This document shows, in pieces, positions 3,134 to 21,877 of a DNA stretch of 25,579 nucleotides; the first letter of the stretch is position 1, and each line of letters starts with the position of its first letter. A program made the position numbers and the translations under genes. The notes beneath the pieces were generated by a model, which did not search any database, was not told where the DNA came from, and was given only the letters and a program-made list of their open reading frames with translations. Source of the stretch: a virus; IMG/VR virus record IMGVR_UViG_3300021959_000340, positions 1 through 25,579 of that record; one strand, written 5' to 3'.

Positions 3134-6100
3134 TTAGTCAGTCCTAATACCTTTATGCTCAAAGCTTCTATAGAACATAGATTGTGCTAGATAACTTCCA
3201 CCAATTCCCGCTTTCGGGCCTTGTAATTCGAACATCACTGGGATGTTCACTGCCTGTCCTGCTGTATTACCAATTTCGTCAGGACCAACCTTAACTGTAC
3301 CTGCAATAAAGCTCGCTGTTAGCAAGTCCGCTCCACCGACGTTAAGTCTGTTTGCTAAGTACGCTTTGATTGCTCTCTGTGTAGGGATAATATTATTTGA
3401 ATCCGCAATAAACAGAGGATCTGTTGAGAACTCTCTAATAACTGTACCAGTACCACCAACTCTAATACCACCTAGTGCAAGTTCTGTAAGACCTGCTAGA
3501 TCGAAAAAGTCAGCACTAATAGTAACAATACCAGTAGCCTGTTCAACAGCAAACAATTCACCAACCCTAAAGTTACCTGATTGGTCTGTACTTGAGTAGA
3601 ATACTCTACCACCATTTAATTCTTGTACTTCATTCTCTGGATAAGAAATATAATTCTGTGAGTACAATGTTGGATAGTTGGTTTGTGTAAAGTTACCAGT
3701 ACCAATATCCAGGAAGTCATGGTTTGAAATTCTACATTGTGAATATCTTGTATTAATTGTTACAACATTACCGTGATTTGTTGAAGGATCGTCCTCAATT
3801 TTAAGTTCAGGACTTACTCTAAATCTTAGTGTAAAGGTTCCGCCAGTATCAATACTTTCTTGTTCAATAACAACAACAGTGTAAAGTTCTGGGTTACCAT
3901 TAAGTCTTAACTGCGCACCTGGGCCAATAACAACTGGCATTCCAGAAACTGTTACAAACTTACCTACAGGAATAATATCTGCAAAACCATCACCTGTAAC
4001 TGTTACAGTAGTTGTACTTGTTTTATATGCATTACCTCTATTAGTCCAACTTGGTTGTGCTAATACACCGTCTGCAAATCTTGTCATATCAAGTACAAGT
4101 TCACCTGTGTTGTTAGGATCAATAACTGAGTAACCAACAGGAGTATTAACAGGATCATAACCTGAACCCGGATCCCAAAGTTTTACAACTCCAATTGATC
4201 CAGCAGCTACATCTGCTCTACCTTTAATCTGTTTACCTGTATAGACAACCTGGTGAGCAAATTTAACATCTCTATCAAGAACTACCCATCTACCTTTTCT
4301 GTTGTCAACACCATCTGTAGGATCTGCATCTGGATTACCAAATGCACATCTGTTCCAGTTACCTGTTACTTCAATGTCTCTTTGTGTCCAAAGAATTCCA
4401 TCTTCTGATGTATAAATGTATCTTACTGGACCTGTTGTTGCATCACCTGCAATGGTTCTACCTGCTGTATCGTAAAGTGCCATAAACACACCTTGACCAT
4501 ACTGTAAGTCATTCCATTGTAATAATGTTGAGCCGTCTAACAATGGTGTTGTTGCAGGATACCAAGTTTGTCCATCGAATGAATAACCAATTTCGCCTGT
4601 GTCTGCCATTGCAACATATCTGTTGTTACCATAAGCAACACGTTTCCAGTCTCTTTGCGAACTGTCTGCAATAACATCCATAATGTAAGTAGTCCAACTA
4701 ATAGTCGAACCGTTCCATGTACCTACTGCTGCTAAGTTATTACTTTGTGCAATTGCAACAAACTGTCCTTTACCGTAAGTAACACTTGTCCACTGGTTTA
4801 TTGTTGAGTCACCTGCTGCTGGAAAGTTAATTGCTGACCAAGTTGCTCCACCGTTAGTGGATAATGCAGCATTGTTTCCTGATGTTGAAACTGCAACAAA
4901 TAAGTTTGCTTGTACTTCGTCATATACTGGATTACCAAATGCAACATCTGCCCAGTTAGTTGATGCTGGTAATGTAAATGCTGTCCATGTATTACCATTT
5001 AAACTGTAAGCACCTACATCTGACGAATCTTTAATTGCAGCAAATCTTCCGTTACCTGCTGCGATTGAAGTCCATACACCTGTGGATGGTAATTGTGAAG
5101 TTGTCCACGATGTACCATTAAGTGAATAGTTAGCAGTAGAACCTGTACTTGCAACAGCAACAAATCTGCCGCTTTCTGCAAATCCTGAGTGTTCAAATGT
5201 AACAATACTGTTTGTACTATCGTCAGTTACACTGTGTACTGTAATAGTAATGTTGTTATCGTCGCCGGCACCTAAACTAGTACCTAAAATTGTAAGAGTA
5301 TCACCTACTGCATAACCAGCACCACCATTCCTTAGTTTAATTGTATAGTCTTTACCAAGTTTAGTAATATCAAATGTTGGATTTGCTGCTGGAACACCAA
5401 TTGTAGTACCTGTTCCTGTACCTGTTGCTGAAATAGATGTAAACACTCCTGATGTTTCACCGTAAGTAACTCCACCCCATGTTGTACCTGCGTCAAGAGT
5501 AGATACTGCATGACTAAATGGTGGTTGATCAAATATAACTCTAGGCTCAAATCTATAAGTTGTACCTGTTAACAACTGTGTTAAGATTAGTGTACCTGGA
5601 ACTACATGATCCCAACCTGGTGTACCATCAGATTCTTTGTAAACTGTTACAACTTTTGAAGTACTGTTGTATGCATGTACATAACCGTACTGTCCTGTAC
5701 CTGGACCCGATGTTAAAATAATTCTTAAACCTAATAAGTTTGCTTCTTCGTTTTCATCGTTAGTAGCAATTGTAACTGTTAGATCGTCACCAGACTGAGC
5801 ATTGTTACCAATAAGTGTAAATCCACCTCCACCTGCTGCGGAAGATGCTTCACCTGTAACAATTCTTGCTTCATACATAGCGTCATCTCTATAATCTTCT
5901 TGTATAACTGCTGCGTTTGTACCAGAACCAACAAATGTATAATCTGCATTTGTATAGTTTTGACCACAATGTTTAAATTCTAGTGCAAGAATTTCATCAT
6001 TTACTTCACCAGCAAATGCTGATACAACTTGTGCTTCTTCTAATCTGTTATTAAGTGTAGCAGTAATAGGTGTTTCTGAAGGATCAGTACCATCTGCTAA

Positions 6101-8722
6101 CGCACCAATGTAACCATATGAACAGTTACCGTTTGTAGCACGTATAACTCCGCCGTTTTCTGCTAGGTAACCTACCTGTGCATAGTACGTAAACACTGAT
6201 ACAAGTTCTGCTCTACCATTGTTAAGAACGTGAGCACCAATACCATCACTAATTACCTGTGTAAAGTCGTTGGATACAATTGATTTGTTACCACCTGCGT
6301 GTAATGCACCATCAATTTTTTGTCCTGTACAATTGTTACCAAATGTAGATACACCTTGTATATATGGAGAACGTGTTGTAATCCAAACTTTGTTATCTGC
6401 TGTACCCCAACCTGGATCAAGTGAAATATAATTAGGTCCAGTTGGTCTTTGATATTGTTCAAAAACGTTTGGCGGATTAAGTGTACCTGTTAACCCATCT
6501 AGTGTACACTGTCTAACACCACAAGCATCTCTTACATAGAACATGTCTGATGATTGACTACCTTGTACCATGCTTTTGTAAAACTTGCCTTCTCTTAAAA
6601 TTCTATAGTTTCCTTCATATCTTAAATCATATGCAAGTGCATTACAAATTCTGTGCATGTCATCGTTATAAATTGCACTGTCGTATACATAATCACTAAA
6701 TGTGTTGTCAAGATATGCAGTGGCTTCTTTCATTAAGAAGTCTTTGTTTGTTTCGATCATTCTTGCAGCATTTAATCTGTTTGTTTGATCTGTAATTTCA
6801 TTAGTACCAGTAACAACAGGATCAGTTCCTGTGCTTTGTACGTGGAAGTTAATGTACTGTATGTAAGCAGATAATCCGTTGTCAACTAAGTTTGCTGCAA
6901 CTGAATCAGATGTAACCTGAACATAGTCAATAATTTCTAATCCGTCTCCTGTTGGTGGTCCTGGATTAAATGTTCCTGTTGGAATAGCATCTGTAATTAC
7001 TGTAACTTCAGCAGTATTTCCTGCTTGTTTTGTAAAGTTTGTACCTGTTAAAATATTTCTAATAACACCTTGTAAATGAACTGCTACAGCATTTCTATAT
7101 ACAGCATCACTTGCCATAGAAGCAATTGCTTGTCTTGGTTTAATTCTAGAAGATCTAATTTCGTCACCAAGTACAACTGTTCTAGTAGGTAAACTAATTG
7201 GAAGTATTTCTTCGTATACTCCTGTTGTTAATTGTATCGTGTTATGTGAATCTACACCATCGTCAGCAAGTTCTGCTGCGTATCTAATTGTTTTAACTGG
7301 TTTGAAAGGATCAATACCTGCATTAGGATTTGATCTATCGTCAACACCAATTATTGGATCAACATGGAAGTATCTTGCACTTCTTCCCCAGTTGTCGTAT
7401 TCAATTGTATCACCTGGTCCAACTTGTAAAAGTTTTTCTGCTGTATCAATTGGAACATTTGTAGCACCTAATGTGGATCCGTCACCAGCAATGGTTCTGC
7501 TTAAACCAAATGTTAATAAATCACCTGGATTAACAAGTCCAACATTTTCTGCACCAGCTAGTAAAAGATCCCAATATTCAAATCCACTACCGCTATCGCC
7601 TGGAAAGTTTTCAGTACTTGCTGTATGTTCTACGTTTGCTTTATATGCACTGCCTCTGTAAGTAATTACATCTCCTACAGCATAAACTGTCGCAATAGTC
7701 CAAGCATTTTTCCATGCTTGACCTTGAATAATAAGCTCCCAGTTACCTGCATCAAGATAGTCTAATGAACTTCCGTCGTCTGTTGAATCTAGTGTAGCAA
7801 CATAAATTGATCCACCTCTTTCAACAACATCACCTGTTTTATATGCTGTTCCAGTAGCCCATTTACCTGCAAGATTTATACCTTTTGAAATTACTGCCCA
7901 ATCAACTTCTGTTGGTTGATAAATTGAATCTCCTGGAGTACGTGCATAGTTGTTTGTACGTGATTGATAAACATAACCACCGTGTTGTACAACATCACCA
8001 ACGCCATAATATTCAGCACCTGTCCATTGTCCTCTAATTTTAGCACCTGGTACTTCTAAAATAAAGTTTGATGCTGTTAAATTAGTTGTTGATGTATGTC
8101 CTGTTAAAACTCTTAAAAGTGACCCACCATACTTAACAAGGTCTTGTGCTTTGTATCTAGTATCACTAGCAAATTCACCTTTGTAAGTTTTACCGTAGTA
8201 GTAAGTTGACCACTTAAATTGGTCGTCTTCTAAACCTAATGCTGCTGTTGCTGCTGATGTATGTGCAGTAACACATCTATAAACAATACCGCCGTAGTTA
8301 ACAACATCTCCTACACCATATGTAGTTGCTACAGTCCAGGCGCTTCCCCAGTCTGCACCCGGTACAAACACTGCCCAATTAGCAATGTCAGCATTAAAGT
8401 CTGCTGTTGATGTATATCCTGTTGTGTTGATAAAAAGAGTACCACCGTTATCTACAATGTCTCCGTTATAATAAGTCGTTGACGGTGTCCATGCACCTTT
8501 AAATTCTCTACCATCAGACATTTTCAACCATGCTGGTTGTCCAATTGTATCACCTGGTGGAATGTAATCTACATCTGCTTTAAAGTCTGCAGATGTGTGT
8601 CCTCTAAGTGCAATATATACACTACCTCCATACTGTATAACATCATCAATGATGTATGCAGTTGAAGTTGTCCATGGTCCTTTCCAAGTATATCTAATTC
8701 GACTTATCTTAAACTCTGCCAT
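3134..8722 (-). CDS. Giant multidomain tail-fibre-like protein (1862 aa) with N-terminal binding modules and a predicted beta-propeller
   Basis: The ATG at 8722 is preceded by AGGGG at good spacing. Residues ~1-395 hold seven ~50-residue repeats (W-K-x-x-W ... Y-x-x-G-D-V-V-x-Y-G-G ... Y ... H-T-S), resembling chitin/carbohydrate-binding folds. Residues ~450-950 look like a beta-helix fibre shaft (N-T-I-Q-L-T-T-G-V-Y, then V-V-L-G-D-E-I-R-S). Residues ~1170-1490 contain seven repeats of the type W-x-x-V-x-x-G-x-G-x-F-V-A followed by a Y-S-x-D/N-G-x-x-W strand, as expected for a seven-bladed, Asp-box-like propeller. The last ~200 residues carry S-S-T-D-Q-S-G-N-F-R-V-G, G-G-I-R-V-G-G-T-G and I-I-P-T-Q-R-A-I-K, from memory a conserved tail-end block of marine T4-like phage structural proteins. 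It is probably a receptor-binding or baseplate-periphery protein. Domain names rest on visible repeats only. Confidence 0.85.
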   Translation of the reverse strand: MAEFKISRIRYTWKGPWTTSTAYIIDDVIQYGGSVYIALRGHTSADFKADVDYIPPGDTIGQPAWLKMSDGREFKGAWTPSTTYYNGDIVDNGGTLFINTTGYTSTADFNADIANWAVFVPGADWGSAWTVATTYGVGDVVNYGGIVYRCVTAHTSAATAALGLEDDQFKWSTYYYGKTYKGEFASDTRYKAQDLVKYGGSLLRVLTGHTSTTNLTASNFILEVPGAKIRGQWTGAEYYGVGDVVQHGGYVYQSRTNNYARTPGDSIYQPTEVDWAVISKGINLAGKWATGTAYKTGDVVERGGSIYVATLDSTDDGSSLDYLDAGNWELIIQGQAWKNAWTIATVYAVGDVITYRGSAYKANVEHTASTENFPGDSGSGFEYWDLLLAGAENVGLVNPGDLLTFGLSRTIAGDGSTLGATNVPIDTAEKLLQVGPGDTIEYDNWGRSARYFHVDPIIGVDDRSNPNAGIDPFKPVKTIRYAAELADDGVDSHNTIQLTTGVYEEILPISLPTRTVVLGDEIRSSRIKPRQAIASMASDAVYRNAVAVHLQGVIRNILTGTNFTKQAGNTAEVTVITDAIPTGTFNPGPPTGDGLEIIDYVQVTSDSVAANLVDNGLSAYIQYINFHVQSTGTDPVVTGTNEITDQTNRLNAARMIETNKDFLMKEATAYLDNTFSDYVYDSAIYNDDMHRICNALAYDLRYEGNYRILREGKFYKSMVQGSQSSDMFYVRDACGVRQCTLDGLTGTLNPPNVFEQYQRPTGPNYISLDPGWGTADNKVWITTRSPYIQGVSTFGNNCTGQKIDGALHAGGNKSIVSNDFTQVISDGIGAHVLNNGRAELVSVFTYYAQVGYLAENGGVIRATNGNCSYGYIGALADGTDPSETPITATLNNRLEEAQVVSAFAGEVNDEILALEFKHCGQNYTNADYTFVGSGTNAAVIQEDYRDDAMYEARIVTGEASSAAGGGGFTLIGNNAQSGDDLTVTIATNDENEEANLLGLRIILTSGPGTGQYGYVHAYNSTSKVVTVYKESDGTPGWDHVVPGTLILTQLLTGTTYRFEPRVIFDQPPFSHAVSTLDAGTTWGGVTYGETSGVFTSISATGTGTGTTIGVPAANPTFDITKLGKDYTIKLRNGGAGYAVGDTLTILGTSLGAGDDNNITITVHSVTDDSTNSIVTFEHSGFAESGRFVAVASTGSTANYSLNGTSWTTSQLPSTGVWTSIAAGNGRFAAIKDSSDVGAYSLNGNTWTAFTLPASTNWADVAFGNPVYDEVQANLFVAVSTSGNNAALSTNGGATWSAINFPAAGDSTINQWTSVTYGKGQFVAIAQSNNLAAVGTWNGSTISWTTYIMDVIADSSQRDWKRVAYGNNRYVAMADTGEIGYSFDGQTWYPATTPLLDGSTLLQWNDLQYGQGVFMALYDTAGRTIAGDATTGPVRYIYTSEDGILWTQRDIEVTGNWNRCAFGNPDADPTDGVDNRKGRWVVLDRDVKFAHQVVYTGKQIKGRADVAAGSIGVVKLWDPGSGYDPVNTPVGYSVIDPNNTGELVLDMTRFADGVLAQPSWTNRGNAYKTSTTTVTVTGDGFADIIPVGKFVTVSGMPVVIGPGAQLRLNGNPELYTVVVIEQESIDTGGTFTLRFRVSPELKIEDDPSTNHGNVVTINTRYSQCRISNHDFLDIGTGNFTQTNYPTLYSQNYISYPENEVQELNGGRVFYSSTDQSGNFRVGELFAVEQATGIVTISADFFDLAGLTELALGGIRVGGTGTVIREFSTDPLFIADSNNIIPTQRAIKAYLANRLNVGGADLLTASFIAGTVKVGPDEIGNTAGQAVNIPVMFELQGPKAGIGGSYLAQSMFYRSFEHKGIRTD

Positions 8723-12941: not shown

Positions 12942-13904
12942 TTAAAATATCATACTATAGAGTAATGCTCTATTTCTATTTACTAATTCTCCTGTTCTAG
13001 TACCGTTAGTAAAGAACACACCTGTTTGACCTAACTCTTCTTCATTGTGATAAAGAATAGTTGATTCATTTACATATGCCGGAGTAACTGCAATTTTTTC
13101 AAGCTCAAGTCCATAGTTAATTTTAACTTTACCTGTACCTTGTGTTCTTAAAAAGATATTACCGTTAGTATCGTTATTTGTTATTTCGTTATTAATAAAT
13201 TCAAGGTCTTGTATTACTGCCCTATTTGAATAAAATTGAGCACCTAGCAAACCGTCAACAATTACTGAAATAGCACTTTCACCAAAAGAACTGTATCCGG
13301 TGTTATCAACTAGATAAGTTAATGCTCCGCTGACGTCCTTATCAGTAACAATAACTCTTGTGTCATTATCAATAATTTGGAATGTTGGATTATCTCTAAT
13401 AGCATCGTCAACATATTTCTTATTAGGAATATCATCGTCATGCGTTACTTGTTCTTCGTATGTTGTAGTACCAATAACTTTTACAACACCTAATCCTGTA
13501 CCGATAAGAGTTAAATCTCCACCGTCTGTAGTTTGATTAGTTGTGATAGTTTTTAATCTTAAACTACTATCAGTAAAGTTGTAACTGCCGTCGGTTCCTT
13601 TTGCAAGGTTAAACGTATCATCATTTTCATCATAAAAGAATGAAACAGGCGTTTCTGTTCCTCTGTCAATCTGTATACCAGAATATCTTAGAGAAACGCC
13701 TGTGCCTGTTTCACCATAGTTTAATTCAATAATGTTATCGTTAACGTTTAAGTTTTCGGCTTGAACAGTTAGTGTGTCACCTTCAACAACTAAGTTACCA
13801 GTGATTTTTACTTCACCAATACCTGCACCAGTGTCAAATATTACATTTGACCCTTCGCCTGTTTTAATGGTATAATCACCATTGGTTTGTACTAACTGTG
13901 CCAT
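12942..13904 (-). CDS. Fibre-like virion structural protein (320 aa)
   Basis: The ATG at 13904 follows AGGT at acceptable spacing, 13 bases after its upstream neighbour. Near the N-terminus it has V-K-I-T-G-N-L-V-V-E-G-D-T-L-T-V, then A-E-N-L-N-V-N-D-N-I-I-E-L-N-Y-G-E-T-G-T-G-V-S and I-Q-I-D-R-G-T. From memory this signature recurs in structural proteins of marine T4-like phages. The middle has I-P-N-K-K-Y-V-D-D-A-I, a common phage-fibre motif. The C-terminal part is beta-rich and ends in a hydrophobic L-L-Y-S-M-I-F. Role in the virion (fibre or whisker) is inferred. Confidence 0.78.
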   Translation of the reverse strand: MAQLVQTNGDYTIKTGEGSNVIFDTGAGIGEVKITGNLVVEGDTLTVQAENLNVNDNIIELNYGETGTGVSLRYSGIQIDRGTETPVSFFYDENDDTFNLAKGTDGSYNFTDSSLRLKTITTNQTTDGGDLTLIGTGLGVVKVIGTTTYEEQVTHDDDIPNKKYVDDAIRDNPTFQIIDNDTRVIVTDKDVSGALTYLVDNTGYSSFGESAISVIVDGLLGAQFYSNRAVIQDLEFINNEITNNDTNGNIFLRTQGTGKVKINYGLELEKIAVTPAYVNESTILYHNEEELGQTGVFFTNGTRTGELVNRNRALLYSMIF

Positions 13905-14420: not shown

Positions 14421-14428
14421 TATTTATC
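14421..14428 (-). promoter_or_regulatory. Candidate late promoter GATAAATA
   Basis: GATAAATAC on the minus strand overlaps the stop codon of the upstream short ORF. It differs from T4 late TATAAATA at one position. It would produce a leader of roughly 90 bases before the 134-aa gene. Confidence 0.6.
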
Positions 14429-14693
14429 TTCTGCTAAGAATAGATAAGAGTTCTTGCTGCCCAACAGTTTTAAGAAGAATGTTAATATTGTCGATTTCTG
14501 CTTGGGCACGTTCTAAATGTATAGTACGTTTTGTCTGCCTGTGCATAATCATATGCTGACTATGATTATCAATGAGCTTTTCTAGCGATTCGGATAATTG
14601 ACGAACATCGTGTTTGAACATAGAATGATTCTTGTTCCACTTGCTTACCTGTTCTCTTAGTAAAGAGAAGTCTTTTTCGTCTTTTATCTCCAT
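14424..14693 (-). CDS. Small charged helical protein (89 aa), possibly leaderless
   Basis: I choose the ATG at 14693 (MEIKDEKDFSLLREQ), giving 89 aa. An ATG six codons earlier (14711) would give 95 aa but lies upstream of the predicted transcription start. Neither has a Shine-Dalgarno site. The -10 TATAAT ends seven bases before 14693, so the mRNA may begin at the AUG itself. The protein is almost wholly helical and charged (L-S-E-S-L-E-K-L-I-D-N-H-S-Q-H, then E-R-A-Q-A-E-I-D-N-I-N-I-L-L), suggesting a short coiled coil. No family is recognised. The sigma70-type promoter suggests early or middle expression and perhaps a host-directed or regulatory role, unlike the structural genes around it. 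Confidence 0.6.
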   Translation of the reverse strand: MEIKDEKDFSLLREQVSKWNKNHSMFKHDVRQLSESLEKLIDNHSQHMIMHRQTKRTIHLERAQAEIDNINILLKTVGQQELLSILSRR

Positions 14694-14699
14694 GCTAGT

Positions 14700-14728
14700 A
14701 TTATATAGCATTTTGGACAGTTAGTCAA
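14700..14728 (-). promoter_or_regulatory. Sigma70-type promoter TTGACT-17-TATAAT
   Basis: On the minus strand TTGACT (14723-14728) and TATAAT (14700-14705) are separated by exactly 17 bases. The -35 box sits in the tail of the preceding terminator. Predicted start is near 14693, the ATG of the 89-aa ORF. Confidence 0.7.
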
Positions 14729-14729
14729 G

Positions 14730-14756
14730 AAAAAAGGACCAATTAAGGTCCTTTTT
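14730..14756 (-). terminator. Rho-independent terminator, probably bidirectional
   Basis: A 10-bp stem AAAAAGGACC/GGTCCTTTTT with a six-base loop is followed on the minus strand by a run of six T. It ends the small RNA transcript and separates it from the 89-aa gene. The A/T symmetry allows function on both strands. Confidence 0.85.
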
Positions 14757-14974
14757 AATATAAGCAAAATAGGTAGGACTTGGTTACACCTACAAGCACG
14801 TACCCGAATACCATTCTAATACGTACAACCTAACCCCGCTAGTGACTGCGATGTGATACTGCGTATTTCTACTACAGCACCTGGGTACCATCCCTGGCTA
14901 GTCAAGTTCGACCCTTCTGGTAAAGGCCTCTTCCTTGCACTATAAACAAAAGTTAATTACTCTTTTGTTGCTAT
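14730..14974 (-). ncRNA. Orphan structured small RNA (~245 nt), unknown family
   Basis: No convincing ORF occurs here. The interval is bounded by a sigma70-like promoter (14981-15008) and a strong terminator (14730-14756) and is visibly richer in G+C than the flanking AT-rich DNA. Visible helices on the minus-strand RNA are a 5' AACAAAAG/CTTTTGTT hairpin (14945-14969), a nested CAAG/CTTG plus CCTT/AAGG arm (14903-14937), and a long arm pairing 14831-14835 with 14782-14786 and 14820-14826 with 14796-14802 (7 bp including a G-U). I looked for tRNA, tmRNA and 6S features and found no complete cloverleaf, tag reading frame or T-arm. It could be a regulatory RNA acting on host or phage mRNAs. The promoter, terminator and folds are seen; the function is unknown. 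Confidence 0.65.
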
Positions 14975-14980
14975 ATTATT

Positions 14981-15008
14981 AATATAACACAAAATAAGTA
15001 TTTGTCAA
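14981..15008 (-). promoter_or_regulatory. Sigma70-type promoter TTGACA-16-TATATT
   Basis: On the minus strand a perfect -35 TTGACA (15003-15008) is followed after 16 bases by TATATT (14981-14986). The predicted start near 14974 opens the small RNA. It is one of only two such promoters I found in the window. Confidence 0.65.
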
Positions 15009-15369: not shown

Positions 15370-16542
15370 TTACGCAAATCTTAGGTTAGCTGAAGTAACT
15401 CCAACTTTTCCTAAGTAGTCAGCTGCATTACCAAGAGATGATGCAGTGTTTGTTAACTCTACATAACCATATCTTGTCATGAAACTAACAACTGGCTCAA
15501 ATGTTGCTGGATCAAGTACAACACCGCTTGACATTAAAGGAATGTATGGGCAGTAGAACGCAGCAGCGTCTGATTCCGAAGAACCTTTGTAACCGATCAA
15601 CACATCGTCGTCAGTTGCATAACCGTTTACGTACACACGCATTGCACTGTTTAAAGTTCCTACAAACTTAGTGTTTGTTGGTGCTTCAAAAGTACCTTCA
15701 GTTGTTCTTGCAAACGCTGAAGTTGTAGCAGATTGTAACAAAGTTAATACTGTTGGTGAAACAACAGCCCAGTTACCTGCGCCACGTCTTGTACGCTGTG
15801 CAATCAAGTTAGCAACTCTGTTGATTTGAACAGCTAAAGCAGCATGTTCGTCACCAACGAAAGTAGCAGTACCTGATACTGCACCTTGGTCATAAGTTAA
15901 AGCAGCCGTACCAGCAAGTGTTTTCAAAGATTGAATAACTTCTTGGTCAATTTCAGCTGTAATTTCTTGTGCTAAAGCAGCCATTACTTCTGCTTCGATG
16001 TCAATACCCTGTTGAGCTTGTGCATCTTGAGCAGCTTCAAACGTCCAACGAGCACTCAATTTACGAGTTTTCGCTTCGACAGTTTGTTTCAAGATTTGAA
16101 TGCTTAGTCTGTTTCCAGCTACACCTTCTAAAGCTGCTGTAGAAGCTGCTTTATCATTAGTAGCACCAGAATAACCTTCTGCAATCTTGAAAGGTGATAG
16201 TGCTTCGTCACCTGCTGTAGTGTCAGTTCCACTTGCAGAGTTGAATGCATCAGCATAACGTACTCTTAATGTGTGGATTTGACCAACAGGTCCAGTCATT
16301 GGCTGAACGCCAACTAGTTCATTAGCGATGACCGTAGGCATCACACGTCTGATCACTGGAAGGATCACACGGTTTAGTGTTGCAACGTTACCGGCAGATG
16401 TAGCACCTGCTGTAGCAGACTCGTTCAAATACGTGCGGGTATTCTCCAGAGTTGTTGCCATAACAGTACGCTTGTTACCTTGAAGTCCTTCTAAAAGGGC
16501 ATCTTTGGTTTCTGACCAGCGACTTTCTAGTAGTTGTGACAT
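15370..16542 (-). CDS. 23: Major capsid protein, T4 gp23 family
   Basis: The ATG at 16542 follows AAGGAG, 11 bases after gp22. The signature V-I-R-R-V-M-P-T-V-I-A-N-E-L-V-G-V-Q-P-M, then T-G-P-V-G-Q-I-H-T-L-R-V-R-Y, corresponds to the T4 gp23 segment around M-V-R-R-A-I-P-N-L-I and G-V-Q-P-M. The order gp21-gp22-gp23 is that of T4. At 390 aa it is clearly shorter than T4 gp23 (521 aa). T4-type prohead protease cuts after (L/I)-x-E. The best candidate here is L39-N40-E41, just before the serine/alanine-rich start of the conserved body, leaving a mature protein of about 349 aa. Other L-x-E sites occur at residues 4-6 and 17-19 (approximate). As the last gene of its operon, with its own terminator, it is well placed for high expression. 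Confidence 0.95.
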   Translation of the reverse strand: MSQLLESRWSETKDALLEGLQGNKRTVMATTLENTRTYLNESATAGATSAGNVATLNRVILPVIRRVMPTVIANELVGVQPMTGPVGQIHTLRVRYADAFNSASGTDTTAGDEALSPFKIAEGYSGATNDKAASTAALEGVAGNRLSIQILKQTVEAKTRKLSARWTFEAAQDAQAQQGIDIEAEVMAALAQEITAEIDQEVIQSLKTLAGTAALTYDQGAVSGTATFVGDEHAALAVQINRVANLIAQRTRRGAGNWAVVSPTVLTLLQSATTSAFARTTEGTFEAPTNTKFVGTLNSAMRVYVNGYATDDDVLIGYKGSSESDAAAFYCPYIPLMSSGVVLDPATFEPVVSFMTRYGYVELTNTASSLGNAADYLGKVGVTSANLRFA

Positions 16543-20176: not shown

Positions 20177-20184
20177 TATTTATT
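20177..20184 (-). promoter_or_regulatory. Candidate late promoter AATAAATA
   Basis: AATAAATACTAG on the minus strand overlaps the gp20 stop codon. It differs from T4 TATAAATA only at the first base. The start would fall at or next to the ATG of the 79-aa gene. Confidence 0.55.
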
Positions 20185-21877
20185 AAACTGCAGGTGTTTC
20201 TGCTGTTTCTCCGCCACTTACATCATCAGCAGGAGGTGCTTCAGTTGGAGCTTCTGTTTCTTCAGCCGCGCCGTCTGCTGCCATCCCTGTAGGTGTTACG
20301 CCTACTGATCTTAATTCACTGCCTGCATCTCCAGGATCTTGTAAATTACCTGCGTTTTCTTCTCTCCACAACTTTTCATTTTCTGCAATTTCTTCTTGTG
20401 ATAAACCTAAGTAACGTTTCATTGCAAAACGTTTACTTAAATGTGGAATTGCGTCTACAACGCTAAAGATGTTTGCTCTAGTAGTATCAAGTTCTGCTTG
20501 TCTGTATGCTGCAAAGTTTTGTGGTGGTTGGAAGTTAATGTTAAACAGTGATGCATCAATGTTATAACCATTGCCATCTAACCAAAGTTTAAACTCTTTG
20601 TCAAACGCTTCAGCCATAATGTTTTGTAGTCTTTCGCAATATCTATTGAATCTTAATTCTTGGATATATGCTGTTCCTACTTTACCGTCTGATACAGTGT
20701 TTGCTTGGTCATCGATTGATGTTGGCAAATAACTTGCAGGAATACGTAATGCTCTAAACAGTTTGTTGGTAAAGAATTTTAAGTCTGTAATTTCGCCTAG
20801 GTTAGTACCACCTGGTAATGTTTCAACTTTAGATCCTCTTCCTTCTGCTGTTTGTGGGAAGAAGTAATCTTCGTTAGTTGACAGAGGATTGTAACTTGCG
20901 TCAATAACACTTGTTCCGCCACCTGTTGAACTAGGAATACGTCTTTGTTGAATTTCATTTTTAACTTTTTCAACAAAACTCATTGCCATGTGTGCAGGCA
21001 TGTTACCTACATCAACATAAAAAATTCTTCTTTCTGGAGCACGTTGAATTCTGTAAATGATAATTGCATCTTCAAGTAATTCTTTTTGCTTGTAAACTTT
21101 AAACACACTTTCAAGTAATGAGTTACCAAAAGGATAGTTGTTGTCTAATCCTTCTGACAACGAAATGTGTACAATATGTTTTGCGTCTACTGTAATTTCG
21201 TTTTGTCCGTTTTGAAAACGTGTGCCTGTTGGCTGTGCTGCATCTCCTACCATGCCACGTGCAAATCCACCGCCGCTTGTGTATGAACTTGTTCCGCTTG
21301 GTGACGTATTTGTTGTACCGTGTGGTGTAGTTGCAACTAAATCTTTAAAGTTAAAATTAATATCTTTGATTACATATTGTTCTGGAATTTTTCCTAAAGA
21401 TTCATTAACAATAATTTTAGAAACTTTTGCGTTATCAATATAAAGTAATTTTTTAGTTTCTGGATCTCTTAAAAAGAAACAATCTCCGTATTTAAAAGTG
21501 TTACGCACAATACGAAACATTCTATTGTCGAAACGCTGCTGCTTACTCCACTTTTGCATTGCTTCTTTAAGAAGTTTAGTTTCAGTACTGGAAGGTTGCC
21601 CTCTAAAGTTAAAGTTAAAATTGCTTAAATTACCGTTGTCTTTTCCTGTACAAAATTCTGCTAGAATATCCAGTGCTGCGTTTACTTCTGAATCCATATC
21701 CATTGTGTCGTACTGCATGTATTTTTCAATACGATTTGGACTACCAGCATATACGTCAGGTAGGTAAGAACTATAGTTTGACCGTGCAGGTCCAGGACGG
21801 CCGCCTCCGCTTATTGGGCTGTAGCTACCCGAATTATTATCAACTGCTACAGGCGTAAAATATTTTTTCCAGCTCAT
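20183..21877 (-). CDS. 20: Portal vertex protein, T4 gp20 family
   Basis: The ATG at 21877 follows AAGGA, 8 bases after the tape-measure-like gene. The protein is 564 aa (T4 gp20 is 524). The segment Y-M-Q-Y-D-T-M-D-M-D-S-E-V-N-A-A-L-D-I-L-A-E-F is the classic gp20 N-terminal motif. Later come Y-R-I-Q-R-A-P-E-R-R-I-F-Y-V-D-V-G-N-M-P and L-P-G-G-T-N-L-G-E-I-T-D, then R-A-L-R-I-P-A-S-Y-L. All are strongly conserved in T4-type portals. It forms the dodecameric ring at the unique vertex through which DNA is packaged and the tail attached. The low-complexity C-terminus (T-E-A-P-T-E-A-P-P) is probably disordered. Confidence 0.96.
   Translation of the reverse strand: MSWKKYFTPVAVDNNSGSYSPISGGGRPGPARSNYSSYLPDVYAGSPNRIEKYMQYDTMDMDSEVNAALDILAEFCTGKDNGNLSNFNFNFRGQPSSTETKLLKEAMQKWSKQQRFDNRMFRIVRNTFKYGDCFFLRDPETKKLLYIDNAKVSKIIVNESLGKIPEQYVIKDINFNFKDLVATTPHGTTNTSPSGTSSYTSGGGFARGMVGDAAQPTGTRFQNGQNEITVDAKHIVHISLSEGLDNNYPFGNSLLESVFKVYKQKELLEDAIIIYRIQRAPERRIFYVDVGNMPAHMAMSFVEKVKNEIQQRRIPSSTGGGTSVIDASYNPLSTNEDYFFPQTAEGRGSKVETLPGGTNLGEITDLKFFTNKLFRALRIPASYLPTSIDDQANTVSDGKVGTAYIQELRFNRYCERLQNIMAEAFDKEFKLWLDGNGYNIDASLFNINFQPPQNFAAYRQAELDTTRANIFSVVDAIPHLSKRFAMKRYLGLSQEEIAENEKLWREENAGNLQDPGDAGSELRSVGVTPTGMAADGAAEETEAPTEAPPADDVSGGETAETPAV

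Follow-up and report, generated by a model that had tools for sequence, protein, structure and literature searches.

The stable RNAs C and D of phage T4 are small phage RNAs of unknown function, which are encoded near tRNA genes. In the T4-like cyanophage S-PM2, an antisense ncRNA of about 225 nt, CfrI, was described, whose function is likewise unknown (PMC2984593). The manA RNA (RF01745) is treated as a cis-regulatory riboswitch candidate by Rfam and by Weinberg et al. 2010, who note 5'-UTR positions ahead of metabolic genes (PMC2864571). It has been an unsolved riboswitch candidate since 2010. No functional test of manA was found in those papers naming 'manA RNA' that were searched, and a term search of the P-HM2 infection RNA-seq paper (PMC5082946) revealed no mention of the manA locus (P-HM2 4771-4969, plus strand). 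A survey of pelagimyophages with Riboswitch Scanner reported no riboswitches in those phages (PMC7029224); the pelagiphage-type contigs analysed here carry manA, glnA and freshwater-2 RNAs. Judged from the sequences of about 200 related marine phage loci, manA resembles an independent small RNA gene, which in most cases has a bacterial-type promoter and in many a terminator as well.

The RNA locus and its surroundings

The window, i.e. the whole stretch of DNA that was analysed, is the 25,579-nt virus record IMGVR_UViG_3300021959_000340 of a T4-like phage. On its minus strand, gp23 is followed by a glutamine riboswitch, a 64-aa ORF, the manA interval, a 95-aa ORF, a freshwater-2 RNA and a 134-aa ORF:

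20183-21877, minus strand: gp20 portal
15370-16542, minus strand: gp23
15296-15248, minus strand: glutamine riboswitch (glnA, RF01739) from the Rfam scan, first element 3' of gp23
15225-15031, minus strand: 64-aa ORF between glutamine riboswitch and manA interval
15008-15003, minus strand: -35 hexamer TTGACA, at the same position in most relatives
14986-14981, minus strand: -10 hexamer TATATT, predicted transcription start at about 14974
14757..14974, minus strand: manA RNA of the pelagiphage subfamily (RF01745 match 14763-14967)
14970..14972, minus strand: 5' arm of the outermost closing helix, pairing with 14763-14765
14763..14765, minus strand: 3' arm of the outermost closing helix, with covariation
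14756-14730, minus strand: intrinsic terminator AAAAAGGACC-TTAATT-GGTCCTTTTTT, hairpin of about -13.6 kcal/mol
14700..14728, minus strand: second sigma70-type promoter TTGACT-17-TATAAT, directly 3' of the terminator
14424..14711, minus strand: 95-aa ORF, the next ORF after manA (89 aa if it starts at ATG 14693)
14405-14320, minus strand: freshwater-2 RNA (RF02980), 3' of the 95-aa ORF and ahead of the 134-aa ORF

The predicted transcript (14974-14730, minus strand) comprises 245 nt, and its RNA part about 220 nt. The initial annotation had proposed a free-standing RNA gene at this site, and the promoter (TTGACA-16 nt-TATATT, 11 of 12 consensus bases), the foldable stretch of about 245 nt and the terminator were all found in place. 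Its remarks on base composition and coding capacity were also correct: the RNA has a G+C content of 43% versus 38% in the window, and a conserved ORF is absent, as each sense frame contains a stop in 37 to 39 of 39 relatives. Folding of positions 14974-14724 yielded -76.2 kcal/mol (z = -2.8 versus shuffles), and the RNA and its terminator can fold simultaneously. The terminator was absent from the list of the pattern scan because its U-run pairs with an upstream A-run.

Taken alone, the manA promoter of the window is not beyond chance. Between positions 8000 and 25579, 48 sigma70-type sites were observed versus 52.8 expected, and further sites with 10-11 of 12 consensus bases occur at 13847 (+), 23238 (-) and 22153 (-); the statement that sigma70-like promoters are confined to this part of the window was therefore overstated. 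It is because of its conservation among the subfamily loci that the promoter stands out from chance.

The second promoter is predicted to drive the 95-aa ORF separately, and a second promoter of this kind was also seen in the relatives L003, L015, L050, L069 and L074. ATG 14693 is located 7 nt past the TATAAT box, and with this start the ORF is probably leaderless. Homologues of the 95-aa ORF (43% identity) in contigs such as L144 lie directly after gp23 and its terminator, and manA was not found in the 219-, 86- and 60-kb contigs (L144, L141 and L142) that were searched.

The order glnA, manA, freshwater-2 was also observed in L017, L020, L066 and L100. In the window, freshwater-2 starts directly after a late promoter and runs into the 134-aa ORF. 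No tRNA or tmRNA genes were found within the window; permuted or alphaproteobacterial-type tmRNA genes were seen in SAR11-phage-type sequences (L001, 2593-2934; L012, 4516-4781).

Relationship to the manA family

The initial annotation had found no matching RNA family and had suggested an Rfam search. At gathering thresholds, such a scan of the whole window did not report the interval, but a sensitive scan identified RF01745 over model positions 1-192 of 192 (41.7 bits, E 1.3e-9), a score below the curated cutoff of 55.2. A genome search of the window with RF01745 returned nothing because no candidate passed its first filter; searches of this kind thus under-report the subfamily. The relative in the Pelagibacter phage Mosig EXVC030M (L001), which covers 73% of the query at 71.5% identity, reaches 64 bits with RF01745. 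Further members of the subfamily also exceed the cutoff (L008 61.9 and L024 58.7 bits), and others lie below it at 44-50 bits. A covariance model (R1) was built from 39 subfamily sequences including the window, which as one of these input sequences scores 231.5 bits. R1 recovered the cyanophage manA RNAs with E-values down to 2.7e-10, and model positions 1-220 were aligned in most cyanophage copies. The copy of phage HTVC008M was not found with R1 (E 0.28); it is more divergent (25.9 bits with RF01745), has a promoter matching 12 of 12 consensus bases and a closing helix of 7 bp (ATCTTAT/ATAAGAT), and is followed by TATAAATA and gp32. Judged from these matches, the interval can be regarded as a divergent manA RNA, with a secure family relationship and a window copy below the curated cutoff. 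The view that it belongs to no RNA family thus had to be given up, and that of a free-standing RNA gene was retained.

The 19-base subfamily motif TATAGTGCAAGGAAGAGGC is present in at least 119 viral stretches and had 0 matches in bacteria and archaea (one genome per species); a cyanophage-type pattern matched 3 contigs in the bacterial and archaeal set. With RF01745, no manA was detected in six Synechococcus phages (Syn9, S-PM2, S-SM1, S-RSM4, Syn19 and S-SM2). A weak R1 match in Syn9 (NC_008296.2, 27936-28101, minus strand; 18.8 bits, E 2.3e-4) could be a remote manA or a chance hit. In four deposited genomes, genes for a 'hypothetical protein' overlie manA (PHM1_121, SSSM5_127, PSSM4_169.1 and PHM2_011; L146, L150, L152 and L153); these are probably spurious genes.

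Conservation of the fold

The covariation analysis which the initial annotation had recommended was positive, since both partners vary in 31 of the 54 base pairs in the alignment of the 39 subfamily sequences. In this alignment, 97.4% of the paired cells can pair versus 80.7% after shuffling, and the covariation score was 0.472 versus 0.162 for shuffled alignments and at most 0.096 when slid. In the outermost helix, A-U/U-A exchanges occur in 12 of 39 relatives, and HTVC008M has its 7-bp helix at this place. Through this helix, the predicted start of the RNA is joined to its 3' end immediately ahead of the terminator. Furthermore, the AUAG/CUAU helix of the window subfamily has its counterpart in GGGAG/CUCCC in the cyanophages and in GCUAC/GUAGC in HTVC008M; its invariance within the subfamily is partly due to the search motif, which contains its 5' arm. 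The conserved fold together with many fixed loop bases makes binding of a protein or ribonucleoprotein seem likelier than action through a short antisense seed.

Some variants of entire hairpins are shared by RNAs with differing backbones (e.g. L027 and L105), as if hairpin modules had been reassorted by recombination between phages.

Promoters and terminators of related loci

Two sets of loci were compared, a pelagiphage type collected with the exact 19-mer and a cyanophage type collected with the exact 16-base pattern GGGAGTGACTGAATAA plus named phages. As exact patterns were used and related sequences are included, the fractions given below are descriptive and do not represent a random sample. 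A promoter with at least 10 of 12 consensus bases within 85 nt upstream was present, among the matches listed, in 86 of 91 pelagiphage-type loci (shuffled mean 3.3) and in 97 of 102 cyanophage-type loci (shuffled mean 2.25). Among these matches, both sets thus show a sigma70 promoter at a near-fixed upstream place (183/193 loci versus about 6 in shuffles), and the -10 box ends 35-39 nt ahead of the 19-mer in 83 of the 86 promoter-bearing subfamily loci listed. For loci with TTGCTT instead of TTGACA, a MotA box was considered and rejected; TTGCTT was kept as a variant -35 box because its spacing of 17 nt to the -10 box is that of a -35 box.

Hairpins that reached -7 kcal/mol or less and were followed by a T-rich tail were scored as terminators. 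Among the matches listed, such a hairpin followed the RNA after 12-17 nt in 55 of 80 distinct pelagiphage-type loci, with 32 distinct sequences, and the same energy limit yielded terminators in 37 of the 102 listed cyanophage-type loci. The remaining 25 of the 80 and most cyanophage-type loci listed lack a hairpin terminator by this criterion; there, transcription may therefore run on into genes such as gp32 and talC. The free-standing RNA gene with a host-type promoter and terminator, as initially annotated, is supported far beyond this window by conservation across loci.

The late-promoter motif NATAAATA, as given in PMC2984593, follows at a distance of up to 150 nt in 52 of the 80 listed pelagiphage-type loci, versus 5% at random positions, and after the RNA in 19 of the 25 listed loci of this type without terminator. 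The null for this motif and the antiterminator test described below cover the pelagiphage type. In 38 of the 102 cyanophage-type loci listed, a hairpin with a T-run ahead of manA extends into the -35 box and would thereby set manA apart from the preceding gene. Additionally, 22 cyanophage-type loci (e.g. L185, L207, L232 and L240) possess a conserved terminator-like hairpin, GACCTAAGATGCAACTC..GAGT.GGGCAGATGGTC, about 8-16 nt after manA; it occurs nowhere else in those 22 loci and received no Rfam assignment.

Copy number and neighbouring genes

Whole-record searches with RF01745 revealed exactly one manA copy in 22 of 22 manA-positive records. The downstream ORFs of 186 loci fell into 45 clusters among the matches listed, and in the named phages manA is followed by purL, talC, gp32, tRNA-Gly and others. 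A tRNA gene lies within 260 nt downstream in 7 of the cyanophage-type loci listed. In Mosig, manA ends about 20 nt ahead of the start of rubrerythrin, which is located between manA and gp32, and gp32 keeps its own late-promoter-like site. The position of manA is independent of any one neighbouring gene, and its copy number is low. Two observations count against a free RNA gene: among the matches listed, gp32 is the only large downstream cluster common to both sets (33 loci) and thus occurs in both host groups, as a cis-regulatory link would look, and the upstream location is shared as well, with gp23 as the largest shared upstream cluster (55 loci).

Independent RNA gene or riboswitch

The best explanation, which we consider fairly probable, is that manA of this T4-like, pelagiphage-type marine phage is an independent, single-copy RNA gene that is driven by the host polymerase and acts in trans. 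It builds on sequence evidence, namely manA homology, the conserved fold, promoter and terminator, the single copy in the records searched and the changing neighbours. With somewhat less confidence, though still leaning towards it, we extend this to the whole family: manA would not be a riboswitch but a single-copy RNA gene under a host promoter, which changes its place within the genomes of T4-like phages infecting picocyanobacteria or SAR11 and acts in trans on the infected cell.

If manA were instead a cis-acting riboswitch, the window terminator (14756-14730) would be the expression platform controlling the 95-aa ORF. Riboswitches commonly have a terminator directly behind the aptamer, the fold is complex and conserved, the downstream genes lie on the same strand, and the short distance to rubrerythrin in Mosig, the recurrence of gp32 in both host groups (33 of the listed loci) and the placements before metabolic genes noted by Weinberg et al. 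(PMC2864571) fit as well. Nevertheless, we regard this as unlikely. The terminators comprise 32 distinct sequences behind a nearly constant 3' end of the RNA, and in the pelagiphage type the antiterminator test gave no signal, as the 5' arms of the terminators showed no preference for their own RNA over others as pairing partner (mean -8.2 versus -8.3 kcal/mol; Wilcoxon p = 0.82); in the window, RNA and terminator do not exclude each other. Transcriptional continuity with the downstream gene is also missing in the window, where the terminator and the second promoter lie ahead of the 95-aa ORF, a homologue of which occurs without manA. Single copies beside many unrelated neighbours, including tRNAs, likewise argue against a switch, as does the opposite layout of the neighbouring leaders, glnA and freshwater-2: among the matches listed from the same contigs, late promoters were found at 18 of 20 glnA and 24 of 24 freshwater-2 RNAs, and a terminator within 75 nt downstream at 0 of 44.

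The two architectures (55 of the 80 listed loci with and 25 without terminator) and the 33 listed loci with gp32 downstream could also reflect a dual use, in which the gp32-linked, terminator-less manA is an early leader that additionally regulates gp32, and terminated lineages, as here, release a free RNA. The proposal that middle genes of cyanomyoviruses have overlapping early and late promoters (PMC2984593) would be in line with this. A cis role in terminator-less lineages, chiefly ahead of gp32, is possible, but the late promoter after the RNA in 19 of 25 such loci listed and the late-promoter-like site which gp32 of Mosig keeps despite the intervening rubrerythrin make dual use quite improbable as a general explanation. 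Least of all do we expect that the RNA stands outside all known families as an orphan class of its own: the silence of the gathering-threshold scan would agree with it, but the E-value of 1.3e-9 to RF01745, the relatives above the cutoff and the reciprocal R1 match leave it hardly any room.

As an independent RNA gene, manA would be transcribed from its own promoter by the unmodified sigma70 RNA polymerase of the host. The RNA of about 220 nt would fold into a multi-helix structure with paired 5' and 3' ends, and the intrinsic terminator would end the transcript, so that it does not have to serve as a leader for the following gene. The single copy in each genome and the different neighbours point to action in trans; most likely, the RNA would act away from its own locus and, in the course of infection, bind a protein or ribonucleoprotein of the host or the phage. 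The T4 functions by which the polymerase is redirected to early phage promoters are absent from cyanomyoviruses (PMC2984593), and early expression would therefore fit the sigma70 promoter. Transcription, early timing, trans action and a bound partner are what we infer for manA, and a regulatory role, as initially annotated, may be added to these.

Should manA indeed act in trans as an RNA gene, searching for a ligand would be the wrong approach, and the search for its function shifts elsewhere. Abundant ocean phages would then have a small RNA in common, and pulldown experiments with cultured isolates could be used to look for its host target, i.e. with Mosig and HTVC008M on SAR11 and P-HM2, P-SSM2 and P-SSM4 on Prochlorococcus.

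Comparison with known RNAs

The window RNA resembles manA (RF01745) in its full-length alignment, a similar order of helices, its occurrence in marine T4-like phages and the site after gp23, which is found in several phages. It differs in its score below the gathering threshold, in forming a distinct subfamily with its own 19-base motif, and in the terminator after the RNA; Rfam files RF01745 as cis-regulatory, unlike the layout seen here. The glnA riboswitch (RF01739) and freshwater-2 (RF02980) are structured RNAs of the same intergenic block, but in contrast to manA they follow a late promoter, have no terminator and are succeeded by a ribosome-binding site and an ORF. By description, T4 RNAs C and D are comparable as small phage RNAs near tRNA genes. 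CfrI is, by description, an ncRNA of similar size from a T4-like phage; however, it runs antisense to psbA and to a gene for a homing endonuclease, whereas manA lies between genes.
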